In this document: piece by piece, positions 2,607 to 23,566 of the stretch | Layout of the letters: each line of letters begins with the position of its first letter | How positions within the stretch are numbered: position 1 is the first letter of the stretch | Position numbers and translations under genes: made by a program | Source of the DNA: Flavobacteriia bacterium | GTDB taxonomy: Bacteria > Bacteroidota > Bacteroidia > Flavobacteriales_D > Crocinitomicaceae | Direction of reading: 5' to 3' | Assembly (NCBI GenBank): GCA_947455515.1 | Contig: CANGOF010000018.1 | Coordinates: 1 to 33,855 of the forward strand | Length of the DNA: 33,855 nucleotides | Notes under the pieces: model-generated | Database searches by the model: none | The model's input: only the letters and a program-made list of their open reading frames with translations | What the model was told of the DNA's origin: nothing

Positions 2607-3263
2607 TTACAACACCATTTCTGGAACATTATCAGGAACAACCAATTCCCCTTCCGTCTTAGAAATAATCTCTTCCACACTTACCCCTGGTGCACGTTCA
2701 ATCAAGTGGAACTTACCATCTTTGATCTCCATTACTGCTAATTCAGTAACGACTTTCTTCACGCAACCTACCCCGGTTAAAGGAAGTGTACATTGTTTCA
2801 AGATTTTAGATTCGCCCGCTTTGTTTGAATGCATCATGGCAACAATGATGTTATCAGCAGAAGCTACTAAATCCATTGCTCCACCCATACCTTTTACCAT
2901 TTTCCCTGGAATTTTCCAGTTCGCGATATCTCCGTTTTGAGACACTTCCATAGCGCCAAGCACTGTAAGTTGTACGTGCTGACCTCTAATCATCGCAAAG
3001 GACATCGCAGAGTCAAAAAACACCGCTCCTTTCGTTGCAGTAATTGTTTGTTTACCTGCATTGATTAAGTCTGCGTCTTCTTCTCCTTCGAAAGGGAAAG
3101 GACCCATCCCTAAAATTCCATTTTCAGATTGAAATTCTACTTCAATTCCTTGAGGGATATAGTTTGCAACTAAGGTTGGGATACCAATTCCTAAGTTTAC
3201 ATACCAACCGTCTTTTAATTCTTGTGCAATTCGTTTTGCAATACCTACTTTATCTAAAGCCAT
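2607..3263 (-). CDS. scoB: Succinyl-CoA:3-ketoacid CoA-transferase subunit B
   Basis: A 218-aa protein, the normal length for the beta subunit of two-subunit 3-oxoacid CoA-transferases. The catalytic-Glu motif is present as SENGILGMGP, with Glu47 expected to form the acyl-CoA/thioester intermediate. Other family marks are GWYVNLGIGIPT at the N-terminus and GGAMDL in the middle. With ScoA it moves CoA between succinyl-CoA and acetoacetate or another 3-oxoacid. The start ATG is at 3261-3263. It is separated from scoA by the 427-bp four-helix cassette rather than following directly as usual. Glutaryl-CoA dehydrogenase at 8625 is another acyl-CoA gene nearby but on the other strand. Confidence 0.93.
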   Translation of the reverse strand: MALDKVGIAKRIAQELKDGWYVNLGIGIPTLVANYIPQGIEVEFQSENGILGMGPFPFEGEEDADLINAGKQTITATKGAVFFDSAMSFAMIRGQHVQLTVLGAMEVSQNGDIANWKIPGKMVKGMGGAMDLVASADNIIVAMMHSNKAGESKILKQCTLPLTGVGCVKKVVTELAVMEIKDGKFHLIERAPGVSVEEIISKTEGELVVPDNVPEMVL

Positions 3264-3271
3264 TTTTTTCT

Positions 3272-3307
3272 AATTTGAAGATTTGAAAATTAGTTAATTT
3301 GAAGATG
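3272..3307 (+). repeat. 36-nt terminal inverted repeat, scoB side
   Basis: Reads AATTTGAAGATTTGAAAA at the outer end and TTAATTTGAAGATG at the inner end. It pairs as an inverted repeat with 3663-3698 (28/36) and matches the solo copy at 22685-22720 at 32/36. It contains the TAA stop (complement of 3294-3296) of the four-helix gene. Confidence 0.7.
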
Positions 3308-3665
3308 GAAGCGTTTTCGAAATTTTGGATGAGGAAATTATTTTATTGATAATTCGAGAAATACTATCTAATTCGTCAATTAAGGATTGATCAAATGGAT
3401 AGGTTTTAATTTCTTTACAAATTTCTAACCAATAATACGTTTCATCGACTTCTTTCGCTGCAATCTTAAATTTGTGAATGAAATCATTCTTTGATTCTGC
3501 ATTTTGAGCTTCGCGAATATTAGCTCCAATTGATGTACCTGATTTGATTAATTGACGAGCGATTGTATACTTTTTTTGTTCTTCTAATGTTTCACAAAAA
3601 ACGACAATATTAAGCGCGAACTTAAAACTTAAATTAACAATAATTTTATCTCGATCGTTCCTCAT
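3294..3665 (-). CDS. Four-helix-bundle protein (S23 / bAvd-like, TIGR02436 type)
   Basis: A 123-aa protein counted from the ATG at 3663-3665; an upstream in-frame TTG at 3671 is possible but lies in the repeat. It has the family pattern: LSFKFALNIV at the N-terminus, RQLIKSGTSIGANIREAQ (residues about 41-58), KNDFIHKFKIAAKEVDETYYWLE and a C-terminal SRIINKIISSSK. Family members form pentameric helical bundles related to the diversity-generating-retroelement accessory protein Avd. They were first described as ORFs in intervening sequences of 23S rRNA genes; no rRNA or reverse transcriptase is near this copy. The molecular role is unknown. It sits between scoA and scoB with its start and stop codons inside flanking inverted repeats, which suggests an inserted cassette carried in this operon. 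Confidence 0.88.
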   Translation of the reverse strand: MRNDRDKIIVNLSFKFALNIVVFCETLEEQKKYTIARQLIKSGTSIGANIREAQNAESKNDFIHKFKIAAKEVDETYYWLEICKEIKTYPFDQSLIDELDSISRIINKIISSSKISKTLPSSN

Positions 3666-3698
3666 TTTCAAATTTTCAAATCAGCACATCTTCAAATT
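3663..3698 (-). repeat. 36-nt terminal inverted repeat, scoA side
   Basis: On the minus strand it begins AATTTGAAGATGTGCTG and ends ATTTGAAAATTTGAAAATG. That final ATG is the likely start codon of the four-helix gene. Its first base is the last base of the scoA stop codon. It matches the opposite end of the cassette in inverted orientation at 28/36 positions. Confidence 0.7.
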
Positions 3699-4393
3699 TA
3701 TTTTGATCTAACCGTTCTCTGTTCAATGCGTTTCTCAAATTTCTCTCCCTGGAAAATGCGTTGTACGAAAATTCCTGGTGTGTGAATTTGATTAGGATCT
3801 AATTCTCCAGCTGGAACCAATTCCTCTACTTCAGCAATCGTAATTTTACCTGCCATTGCCATCATTGGATTGAAGTTGCGAGCTGTTGCTTTATATACTA
3901 AGTTTCCTTCCGTATCGCCTTTCCAAGCTTTTACAATAGCAAAGTCAGCCTCTAATGCGGATTCTAAGATGTGTGGTTTACCATTGAAAACACGTACTTC
4001 TTTTCCTTCTGCAACTTCTGTTCCGTAACCTGCTGGTGTAAAGAATGCTGGAATACCTGCACCTCCCGCACGACATCTTTCCGCTAAAGAACCTTGAGGA
4101 ATTAAATCTACTTCTAATTCTCCAGATAACATTTGACGTTCAAATTCGTCGTTTTCACCAACGTAGGAACTGATCATTTTCTTCACTTGTTTTTGTTGTA
4201 ATAACAATCCAAGTCCGAAGTCATCTACACCCGCATTGTTTGAAATGCATGTAAGATTTTTAACGCCTAATTTTACTAATTCTGCGATTGAATTTTCAGG
4301 AATACCACATAAACCAAATCCACCAACCATCAAGGTCATGTTGTCTTCGATTCCTTTTAGGGCTTCTGAAACGTTACTTACTACTTTATTCAT
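3698..4393 (-). CDS. scoA: Succinyl-CoA:3-ketoacid CoA-transferase subunit A
   Basis: A 231-aa protein, the normal alpha-subunit length. The CoA-transferase signature [11 protein letters not shown] lies at residues 24-34. Further family marks are [34 protein letters not shown] and the C-terminal [15 protein letters not shown]. It combines with ScoB to activate acetoacetate or similar 3-oxoacids using succinyl-CoA. The start ATG is at 4391-4393. It follows the PBP1A stop by only 22 nt, so the two are probably on one transcript despite unrelated functions. Normally scoB would follow at once, but here the four-helix cassette intervenes, starting at the scoA stop codon. Confidence 0.93.
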
Positions 4394-21970: not shown

Positions 21971-22002
21971 AATTGTCAATTATCAATTGTCAATTGACAA
22001 TT
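21971..22002. repeat. 32-nt AATTGTCAATT repeat, copy A (truB/response regulator junction)
   Basis: Contains the 18-nt perfect palindrome AATTGTCAATTGACAATT (21985-22002), preceded by a further AATTGTCAATT unit. It matches copy B at 29037-29068 in 29 of 32 positions. The end of the truB reading frame and its TGA stop lie inside it. Confidence 0.8.
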
Positions 22003-22683
22003 TTGAATTTCCTCAATCCATTCTTCTACCGATTTGGAATTTTCAATTAAAAAACTTCCGGAGGCAGTTCTACGTAACGCGATTAACGCGGCTCCAGCAT
22101 TTAGTTTATGTCCAAAGTCATTCGCGATGGAACGAATGTAAGTTCCTTTGCTGCAAGTAATTTTGAAGTCTATTTCCGGAAAACGGGTAGCATCTATTTC
22201 AAATGCAGTGATGTTAATTTTATTTGCTTTTAGAATAACTTCTTTCCCTGCTCTTGCTAAGTCATAGGCACGTTTGCCATCTACTTGTTTGGCAGAAAAT
22301 ATCGGTGGAACTTGGTCTTGTTCTCCTAAAAATGAAAGACTCACTTCTTCGATTAATTCGGGTGTAATATGATCGATTGGAAATTCTTTGTTAAATTCCG
22401 TTTCTAAATCGTATGATGGAGTTGTTTTACCAACTAAAATGGTACCTGTATAGGTTTTATCCTCCATCACAAATTGATCAATCTTCTTGGTGTTTTTACC
22501 GGTACAAATAATTAAAAGTCCAGTTGCTAATGGATCTAAAGTTCCAGCATGACCTACCTTAAATTTTTTTATTCCAAGTTTTTGTTTGAGGTTCCAACGC
22601 AATTTATTCACCACATCAAAGGAAGTCCAATTCAAAGGTTTATCTACTAATAGGTTTTCGCCAGCTTGGAAATCGTATTGCAT
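21976..22683 (-). CDS. truB: tRNA pseudouridine(55) synthase
   Basis: A 235-aa protein, the short TruB form without a PUA extension that is usual in this phylum. The catalytic Asp50 lies in VGHAGTLDPLATGLL. Other motifs are ENLLVDKPLNWTSFDVV at the N-terminus, KTYTGTILVGKTTPSYD, QVPPIFSAKQVDGKRAYDLAR and CSKGTYIRSIANDFG. It makes pseudouridine 55 in the T-loop of tRNAs. The last residues, NCQLTIDN, and the TGA stop are encoded by the 32-nt AATTGTCAATT repeat, so the native C-terminus has been replaced or extended by the repeat. A separate 36-nt repeat lies just upstream of its ATG. The gene is in the ftsX-DUF3098-uppP-truB run. Confidence 0.95.
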   Translation of the reverse strand: MQYDFQAGENLLVDKPLNWTSFDVVNKLRWNLKQKLGIKKFKVGHAGTLDPLATGLLIICTGKNTKKIDQFVMEDKTYTGTILVGKTTPSYDLETEFNKEFPIDHITPELIEEVSLSFLGEQDQVPPIFSAKQVDGKRAYDLARAGKEVILKANKINITAFEIDATRFPEIDFKITCSKGTYIRSIANDFGHKLNAGAALIALRRTASGSFLIENSKSVEEWIEEIQNCQLTIDN

Positions 22684-22684
22684 T

Positions 22685-22720
22685 AATTTGAAAATTTGAA
22701 AATGAGTGAATTTGAAAATG
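22685..22720 (+). repeat. Solo 36-nt copy of the four-helix cassette repeat, in the uppP-truB gap
   Basis: Begins AATTTGAAAATTTGAAAATG and ends GTGAATTTGAAAATG. It is exactly the same length as the cassette ends and matches the repeat at 3272-3307 at 32 of 36 positions (differences at positions 9, 20, 24 and 33). It occupies most of the 43-nt space between the uppP stop and the truB start. Confidence 0.7.
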
Positions 22721-22726
22721 CAGGTG

Positions 22727-23566
22727 TTATTTATTGAACACTAATTCAAAAATAATAAAGGCGATTCCAAGTACGATGCGGTACCATCCCCACATTTTGA
22801 ATCCGTATTTTTTTAAGATTCCGATGAAGAATTTGATGGCAAGTACAGCAACAGCAAATGCTACGATATTACCGATAATGAATAAAATCATATAATTTTT
22901 TTCCATCAACATTTCGTAGCCTTTCATTTCCTTGATCGTTTCTACAGCATTAACCATAACAGGTACATCCCAATCTTTTAAGAAGATGGAATAACTTGTT
23001 ACTGCCAACATCGTTGGAACCGCTAAAAAGAAACTGAATTCAGCAGCCATACGCATGGTTAAACCTTGTTGCATCCCACCAATGATGGATGCAGCGGAGC
23101 GACTCGTTCCAGGCATCATAGCCAAACATTGCCAAAAACCAATGGTGATAGCACTTTTGTTGCTCACATTTTGTTCTTCGTCGATGCGTGTATTTTTAAA
23201 TAAACGGTGAATGAATAACAAGATAATACCACCAACAATCAGCGTTATTGCAATAGGAAGTGGTTTTTCAAGCACTGCTTCAATTTTGTCATCAAACAAT
23301 TTACCTAGCACTAAGGCTGGAATAACGGCTAAACCAATTTTCACGTAGAACTTGAAGTTGGTAAAGTCAAAGAATTTTTTCCAGTACAATACAACAACTG
23401 CAAGTATAGCACCAAACTGTATGGATACTTGAAACATTTTTACAAACACGTCTTTCTCAATACCAAAGATAGTACTGGTGAAAATCATGTGTGCAGTAGA
23501 GGAAACAGGAAGGAATTCGGTTAAACCTTCGATAATCGCTAAAACAATCGCTTGAAGAAAATCCAT
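22727..23566 (-). CDS. uppP: Undecaprenyl-diphosphatase
   Basis: A 279-aa polytopic membrane protein of the BacA/UppP family. The first active-site motif, EGLTEFLPVSSTAH, is at residues 13-26; the second, MPGTSRSAASIIGGM, is mid-protein. About eight hydrophobic helices fit the family. It dephosphorylates undecaprenyl pyrophosphate so the lipid carrier for peptidoglycan and other surface polymers can be reused, and it can confer bacitracin resistance when abundant. The start is one base after the DUF3098 stop region, so translation is coupled. The gap to truB is filled by a dispersed repeat. Functionally it supports PBP1A encoded at 4416-6980. Confidence 0.95.
   Translation of the reverse strand: MDFLQAIVLAIIEGLTEFLPVSSTAHMIFTSTIFGIEKDVFVKMFQVSIQFGAILAVVVLYWKKFFDFTNFKFYVKIGLAVIPALVLGKLFDDKIEAVLEKPLPIAITLIVGGIILLFIHRLFKNTRIDEEQNVSNKSAITIGFWQCLAMMPGTSRSAASIIGGMQQGLTMRMAAEFSFFLAVPTMLAVTSYSIFLKDWDVPVMVNAVETIKEMKGYEMLMEKNYMILFIIGNIVAFAVAVLAIKFFIGILKKYGFKMWGWYRIVLGIAFIIFELVFNK

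Follow-up and report, generated by a model that had tools for sequence, protein, structure and literature searches.

An IVP gene with inverted word-array ends in the scoA/scoB gap, a candidate exchangeable cassette of protein operons

Proteins of the IVP (S23) family have featured in the literature from the early 1990s onward, at first as curiosities of split rRNA genes and later as products of cas-locus genes and look-alikes of Avd. Two kinds of repeat bear comparison with the locus described here: REP/BIME elements with RAYT proteins, in which one gene is flanked by repeats scattered elsewhere in the genome, the REPs being palindromes, and the comparable short-period STRR repeats of cyanobacteria. 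The 23S rRNA intervening sequence (IVS) of Coxiella burnetii is 428 nt long, has a 28-bp terminal stem, contains an S23p ORF and is cut by RNase III in vitro (PMC4990558). The same paper reviews earlier proposals in which IVSs were seen as transposition remnants or as mobile elements with a mobility-aiding ORF, and its authors think that S23p is not made in vivo (PMC4990558). IVP ORFs have also been described in rRNA insertions of CPR (PMC11270868), and 18 PF05635 genes were reported from cas loci, frequently close to cas4 and cas6 (PMC3936711); a figure legend of PMC10910872 names such genes too. Homology of Avd to PF05635 has been suggested (PMC10053308), and heptameric intergenic repeats are described from Xanthomonas (GGGAATC) and Nostoc (GGGGA(T/C)T) (PMC4692102).

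We analyzed a 33,855-nt stretch of DNA from a Flavobacteriia bacterium (hereafter, the window; its genome is G000), in which a first-pass annotation had placed an IVP gene with 36-nt inverted ends, matching at 28/36 positions, between scoA and scoB. A repeat search and profile searches confirmed this arrangement, in which the minus-strand gene order is scoA (4393-3698), the IVP gene (3665-3294) and scoB (3263-2607):

3698..4393, minus strand: scoA, 3-oxoacid CoA-transferase subunit A, the upstream gene (TIGR02429, 3e-82)
3663..3698, minus strand: left (upstream) arm, an array of ~8-nt words (AATTTGAA...), an inverted pair with the right arm
3294..3665, minus strand: IVP / S23 / 'four helix bundle' gene, 123 aa from ATG, matching PF05635 and TIGR02436
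3272..3307, minus strand: right (downstream) arm, inverse complement of the left arm (28/36)
2607..3263, minus strand: scoB, 3-oxoacid CoA-transferase subunit B, the downstream gene (TIGR02428, 2e-97)

The IVP gene matches the PF05635 profile with an E-value of 4.4e-23 (82 bits, cut-off 33.8) and the TIGR02436 profile with 1.7e-27 (95.8 bits, cut-off 24). Its two arms, each of 36 nt and 78% complementary, are spaced 355 nt apart and fit closely around the coding sequences. The outermost base of the left arm is also the final one of the scoA stop codon, and the inner end of this arm is the last base of the IVP ATG (3665-3663); the IVP TAA (3296-3294) lies inside the right arm, which also encodes the final residues SSN. 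The coordinates therefore agree with the annotated start codon bordering one repeat and stop codon within the other. Eight nucleotides separate the right arm from the scoB ATG (3263), and the interval from the outer end of one arm to that of the other measures 427 bp. In the predicted fold of the window RNA, the arms are paired (MFE −85.7 versus −72.2 for shuffles, z −2.4; 1/100 shuffles equals it). Because this fold stands out from shuffles and inverted flanks with z≥3 occur in only 7/359 and 16/382 control genes of the surveys described below, the arms exceed what chance would give.

The interval shares with the Coxiella rRNA IVS a length of ~428 nt, terminal inverted repeats around one S23p ORF (28/36 here, pairing in the predicted RNA), a patchy distribution and inferred horizontal transfer (PMC4990558). 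It differs in its host site, which is a gap between protein-coding genes (scoA/scoB) and not a 16S or 23S rRNA gene, and in its arms, arrays whose 7-8 nt words vary with the lineage. Moreover, purifying selection acts on the IVP here; the authors of the Coxiella study, in contrast, consider S23p not to be made in vivo (PMC4990558). We consider it rather probable that the 427-bp interval is an exchangeable intercistronic cassette made of one IVP (S23/Avd-like) gene and its own inverted word arrays. Such a cassette, built like rRNA intervening sequences but residing in protein operons, is apparently and provisionally undescribed: the literature that we searched, which included few subscription papers, yielded no description of IVP genes with word-array ends in protein operons.

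We scored inverted ends by comparing the 150 nt upstream of each IVP gene with the reverse complement of the 150 nt downstream, against mononucleotide shuffles, and scored ORF-based control genes from the same loci identically. TIGR02436 is present in 156/299 genomes of the order, often in multiple copies. Our order set was drawn from the top of the E-value list (60 regions and 30 loci of several hundred matches), with the window and four scoA/scoB loci found via scoB in addition; its site frequencies are biased. The named set, from GTDB genomes, consists of the best 80 of at least 582 related stretches. Inverted ends reached z≥3 in 64/99 IVPs of the order set compared with 7/359 controls (Fisher p 3e-44), and in 72/93 IVPs of the named set compared with 16/382 controls (Fisher p 8e-50). 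The 35/99 and 21/93 IVPs below this threshold count against the cassette reading. For the context, tree, word and arm-matching analyses, twice-fetched loci were merged, which reduced the 99 IVPs of the order set to 97 distinct loci; L062, with no IVP with complete ends, was left out.

By phylum, z≥3 was reached in the named set by 59/77 IVPs of Bacteroidota, by 5/5 of Pseudomonadota (two from one locus) and by 8 of eleven single rows, which represent ten other phyla and one record without phylum; the single rows under the threshold are from Nitrospirota, Balneolota and Lentisphaerota. Outside Bacteroidota, 13/16 IVPs have inverted word-array ends, in rows that are mostly metagenome bins and of which two are one Vreelandella locus. 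L254, filed as Limnohabitans, has a neighbor that reads like a Bacteroidota thiolase and may be misbinned. Among 38 plasmid records with an IVP, the 12 that we examined, all cyanobacterial, gave z≥5 in nine cases, 2.6 in one and 0.4 in two (L307 and L308), where arrays flank the IVP on both sides but in direct orientation. Over a contiguous 1.2 Mb of G026, two of five IVPs scored z≥4 compared with 14/1041 other genes (p 0.002); the five scores are 5.1, 4.2, 3.3, 2.2 and 1.8, and three reach z≥3. Inverted word-array ends are common in the IVP family across several phyla and rare in control genes. The earlier picture of a single special cassette at scoA/scoB thus gives way to a widespread arrangement that crosses phyla. 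Of the 14 non-IVP genes of G026 at z≥4, some bear real arrays by eye. Within C1 ~3153373-3161710 of this genome, arrays without an IVP lie near an ftsZ-like gene (3.15 Mb) and a second nearby gene; elsewhere in the same stretch, small genes reading like GIY-YIG and other endonucleases also have inverted flanks.

Tandem words of 7 nt mark heptameric and STRR-type repeats. A period of 7 or 14 fits 76/101 arms best and a period of 8 fits 17/101 (arms ≥24 nt, z≥4; figures without a chance level), but the words of the window's own scoA/scoB subfamily are ~8 nt long and begin with AAT. Left arms are G-rich on the coding strand, with a positive GC skew in 42 versus 6 cases (order set) and 49 versus 5 (named set); for control upstream flanks, the counts are 395 positive versus 320. 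By description, the arms resemble the Xanthomonas and Nostoc heptamers, which are short-period, G-rich intergenic arrays, one of them in an operon gap (pecE/pecF), with lengths that vary among close relatives; the account of these repeats in PMC4692102 draws no link to an IVP gene.

Arms share more 6-mers with arms at the same site in another genome (Jaccard 0.111) than with arms at another site in the same genome (0.059; baseline 0.055): arm words track IVP site and lineage, not genome. Other four-helix genes do not carry the same ends, as had been conceivable from the first reading of the locus; ends are alike in kind, and their words differ by IVP lineage. We likewise rejected identical ends on every IVP of a genome, because words differ between co-resident IVPs: the three of G010 have AATTTGAA, TTAGACAAAAG and AGATTGCAG words, respectively. 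Left arms matched their own right arm above the mean of other species' right arms in 13/13 cases at sdhAB, 15/16 at fadBA, 4/5 at scoAB and 7/11 at sufBC, and own-partner matching was significant within site classes (permutation p≤2e-4). At sufB/sufC, the own partner was no better than the others (means 21.4 versus 21.9), which counts against the cassette reading.

IVP genes recur in particular gaps. Among the 97 distinct loci, 16 lie at fadB/fadA, 13 at sdhA/sdhB, 11 at sufB/sufC and five at scoA/scoB, with Sdh, Suf and Fad genes identified by Pfam and nine site labels (L065, L068, L072, L075, L079, L081, L085, L089 and L090) set by reading the flanks. Further gaps, named by reading sequences, involve hisH/hisF, kynurenine-pathway, panB and aldehyde dehydrogenase genes. 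IVPs are co-directional with both neighbors in 65/85 cases and with neither in 6/85, compared with 110/237 and 31/237 for controls (p 2e-6); they preferentially occupy gaps between co-directional genes. On cyanobacterial plasmids, IVPs lie between ribonucleotide reductase subunits or between secretion genes, in both cases antiparallel to their neighbors (L304 and L305). Two others (L308 and L309) lie, with word arrays around them, between cas6 and cas4 of type I-D CRISPR operons. PF05635 genes beside cas4 and cas6 match the known cas-locus IVPs, and the section of PMC3936711 on those genes makes no mention of word arrays such as those found here. We suggest that IVPs in cas loci reflect insertion into an operon rather than a cas function.

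In IVP trees, the genes at each of three sites, sdhA/sdhB (13 rows), sufB/sufC (11) and scoA/scoB (5), make up a single clade. Long residence, or exchange bound to the site, accounts for this better than free transposition would. The fadB/fadA genes do not group in this way and require 8 changes. One clade at each of these three sites, together with array lengths that differ between sister species, would also be in keeping with vertical inheritance and frequent loss of an ancient gene residing in the chromosome at each site, with arrays produced by polymerase slippage. The scoA/scoB site speaks against this explanation. When we searched 399 genomes of the order for the scoA/scoB subfamily, 30 loci were returned, and the IVP adjoins scoA or scoB in 20. 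They contain two lineages. Lineage I unites G000 and G010 with genera g9 and g27 (6 rows, 3 genera; support 95/95), and lineage II unites G003, G007 and G009 with genus g31 and families f3 and f13 (10 rows, 3 families; support 90/96, under the program's mark). A single clade of the five scoA/scoB rows from the window's genus was rejected (p-AU 0.0006, with one duplicate row left free in the test). Strict one-site-one-lineage inheritance is therefore rejected at scoA/scoB, while sdhA/sdhB and sufB/sufC each remain one clade. Slippage, moreover, leaves unexplained both the inverted, partner-matched arms and a remnant arm of foreign type behind an intact cassette (L197, described below). Old duplication with differential loss could yield part of the scoA/scoB pattern; overall, the ancient-gene explanation is disfavored at this site, and we regard it as very improbable.

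The arms change with the lineage. Words of the TTTGAAAAT type occur in 6/6 lineage I loci and ATGTAAC/GTACATT-type words in 9/10 lineage II loci; the tenth (L423), truncated at a contig end, has neither type. L410, with a core covering 21% of columns, and the L430/L432 pair are not part of this count. Since words change with the IVP lineage at scoA/scoB, the IVP gene and its ends go together, and these sequence comparisons support the view that gene and arms behave as a unit there. One word of the opposite lineage's type in each of three rows (L404, L407 and L418) counts against the cassette reading. The G009 IVP belongs to lineage II and is 61% identical to that of the window, and the ScoA proteins of G009 and G000 are 98% identical; because the last 600 nt of scoA are only 88% identical at the DNA level, we do not date the lineage exchange as recent. 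Locus L409 comes from a genome (G358) assigned to a different genus, yet its scoA, IVP and scoB proteins match those of G000 exactly; it is probably a misplaced contig and was excluded from the lineage counts.

We compared the contents of the same gaps in 13 genomes of the genus, several of them incomplete. The fadB/fadA gap measures 9 nt in G000 and G004 and 44-46 nt without an IVP in G007 and G011; a first IVP type fills it in G008, G010 and, judged by words, G003, and a second type in G001, G005, G009, G012 and, judged by words, G006. In G005 (L197), a right arm of the first type persists as a leftover behind the second-type IVP. At sdhA/sdhB, an IVP is present in G002, G003, G007, G008 and G009, and the gap is IVP-free in G010 (34 nt), G001 (array alone) and G012 (101 nt). 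G005 (L154) holds a nucleotidyltransferase (PF01909) and HepT-like (PF01934) pair, that is, MNT-HepT, at this site; right-arm-like words precede sdhB, and the cargo of this slot differs from the IVP that sister species hold there. Contigs of G000, G004 and G006 (L160, L161 and L162) begin within sdhB, those of G000 and G004 at the same residue, and leave the sdhA/sdhB gap unassembled; in G000, it could hide an array or cassette. At sufB/sufC, an IVP with left arrays of varying length is present in G001, G006, G008 and G010, the gap is clean (24-34 nt) in G007, G011 and G012, and other short repeats occupy it in G000, G003, G005 and G009.

The scoA/scoB gap is as variable. The window's IVP is present in G000 and G010, other IVPs are present in G003, G007 and G009, and G012 has 218 nt without one. 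In G001, G004, G005, G006 and G008, the gap holds a CCTCCC...GGGAGG repeat with right-arm-like sequence before scoB; right-arm-like TTTTCAAATCTTCAAATTAG or a close variant precedes scoB in five relatives without an IVP gene. Outside the genus, eight of nine junctions with both genes measure 10-54 nt without an IVP, and that of G026 contains one. The premise that scoA and scoB are normally adjacent, as annotated at first, is borne out for many of the relatives; scoA lies within the retrieved stretch in 19/30 scoB loci. Among relatives, the same gap is clean, IVP-filled or otherwise filled, so that the empty sites sought do exist, alongside differently filled and remnant-bearing ones. We noticed no target duplications by eye in the clean and filled fadB/fadA and sdhA/sdhB gaps, the only ones compared in this way. 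No insertion event was directly observed in the gap comparisons, which counts against the cassette reading. A palindromic CTCC...GGAGG repeat replaces the IVP at L032, L033, L035, L036 and L037 (scoA/scoB) and at L173 (sufB/sufC), and a GACTCCGCTCAGAGTGACG-type repeat fills the sufB/sufC gap in L165, with a variant in L169; these look like additional families of operon-gap repeats.

The first-pass observation is real, and its idea of a minimal unit is broadly right; the arrangement is family-wide and cross-phylum, with lineage-specific ends. The two findings that were to overturn the original proposal did not arise: relatives do not all carry the gene without repeats, and the words of the ends are not confined to this place in the genome. 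That protein and repeats form a minimal mobile or repeat-propagating unit is favored by their unit behavior at scoA/scoB, the recurring words and the varied gaps; movement itself was not directly seen. In a plausible mechanism, the IVP protein would recognize its own words, and host or trans-acting enzymes would perform the strand chemistry, moving or copying the unit once the IVP has bound its words. The arms would travel with the gene as its ends into an operon gap, sometimes one already housing another cassette or array, and gene-less arrays would be the remains of lost cassettes or non-autonomous ends. Survivors would be found between cistrons because insertion there is tolerated, as the operon can still be read.

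More broadly, we entertain tentatively that IVP cassettes are widespread minimal mobile elements without a recognizable transposase that home to operon gaps, that rRNA intervening sequences are the special case of landing in rRNA, and that their ends and remnants account for a large part of the short-word repeats (heptameric, STRR-like) in Bacteroidota and cyanobacteria. Shared ends offer one testable reason for the rRNA, cas and operon locations of IVPs, namely entry of a cassette into gaps of operons. Words differ between IVP lineages, so that assays with purified proteins and synthetic arms can address binding specificity directly. How short-period intergenic repeats arise thereby becomes experimentally approachable, which opens a way into both a protein family and short repeats that previously lacked explanation.

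Alternatively, the interval might act as an RNA element, in which the arms pair in the operon mRNA, RNase III cuts there and the module tunes the ratio or coupling of the cistrons, with the IVP helping or autoregulating. The paired arms in the predicted window RNA (z −2.4), the position of IVPs between subunits of one enzyme (SdhA/B, SufB/C and ScoA/B), mostly in operon direction, and the in vitro cutting of the Coxiella rRNA IVS by RNase III (PMC4990558) are consistent with such a role. Against it, transitions between arms show no excess of G-U compatible over incompatible changes (194 versus 247; 119 versus 101 in the order set and 75 versus 146 in the named set), relatives manage without the cassette across gaps of 9-46 nt, and some IVPs oppose both neighbors (6/85; L304 and L305). 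We therefore consider an RNA element unlikely.

The dN/dS of the IVP protein is 0.05-0.34, mostly <0.25, in pairs with dS >0.2, and these ratios show purifying selection. The window IVP gives 0.12 when paired with that of G010, at a dS of just 0.027, and 0.21-0.28 with three IVPs of the scoA/scoB site that are less closely related. Little weight attaches to the values of 0.60-1.55 from three very close pairs (dS 0.013-0.027), two of which were compared with one identical sequence. As the first annotation had it, the unit contains no known transposase: PF05635 is the only family matched in the gene, and for this reason we do not term the IVP a transposase. A reverse transcriptase might drive the element, with the IVP acting like Avd of diversity-generating retroelements, and PF05635 resembles Avd (PMC10053308). 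Yet RVT_1 has no match in four of the six genus genomes that are ≥90% complete (G001, G009, G010 and G012, holding 2, 4, 3 and 1 IVP genes), nor in G000 (86.5% complete), and is present in 6/13 genus genomes; the genomic reverse transcriptase that marks diversity-generating retroelements is thus missing from five IVP-bearing genomes. Our IVP sequence profile matched only XCC0516 (2gsc) and 2rld, not Avd. Dependence on a reverse transcriptase is disfavored by these absences from near-complete genomes, and we judge it extremely unlikely.

Arm words are scattered through the window genome, which has one PF05635 gene in an assembly that is 86.5% complete. In a whole-genome search of the kind that had been recommended, AATTTGAARATKTGAAAATT with ≤2 mismatches gave 29 matches, some overlapping, compared with 3 for the reversed control pattern. 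We inspected 23 match loci by eye: many look like intergenic arrays, and a few with two mismatches resemble chance matches. One array lies in the window itself, in a 43-nt gap between minus-strand ORFs 21976-22683 and 22727-23566:

22685..22720, plus strand: word array without an IVP (AATTTGAA AATTTGAA AATGAGTG AATTTGAA AATG; L010), with the same words as the arms

Since arrays also exist without an IVP, the words may have another cause, which counts against the cassette reading. One such cause would be a Y1 (HUH) transposase encoded elsewhere in the genome that moves the arms, as in REP/RAYT systems, with the IVP gene as a passenger. Like those systems, the locus pairs one gene with flanking repeats that are dispersed in the genome without it, and Y1_Tnp matches occur in 10/13 genus genomes (9 above cut-off), including 6/6 of those ≥90% complete. 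Y1 genes are common anyway (5/14 control genomes), so their presence carries little information; they are possible helpers of IVP cassettes. No Y1 gene lies between the repeats of the IVP element, its arms are degenerate tandem words unlike REP palindromes, and a genome may hold several IVP lineages, each with its own words. Across genera and families, moreover, the words go along with the IVP lineage, something not required of a passenger. We regard Y1-driven movement as quite improbable, and the REP/RAYT comparison made at the outset, which the scattered repeats fit, is no more than an analogy. Matches of the AATTTGAA type are abundant (13-55) in G000, G001, G004, G005, G008, G009 and G010 and number 1-9 in the other six genus genomes, in line with a former presence of lineage I in the first seven. 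In G010, a few long arrays supply much of the count. Its C13:4-135, C27:29412-29495 and C34:24386-24501 are long regular GATTTGAA octamer arrays, one of them at a contig end, in which one word has expanded locally to many copies.
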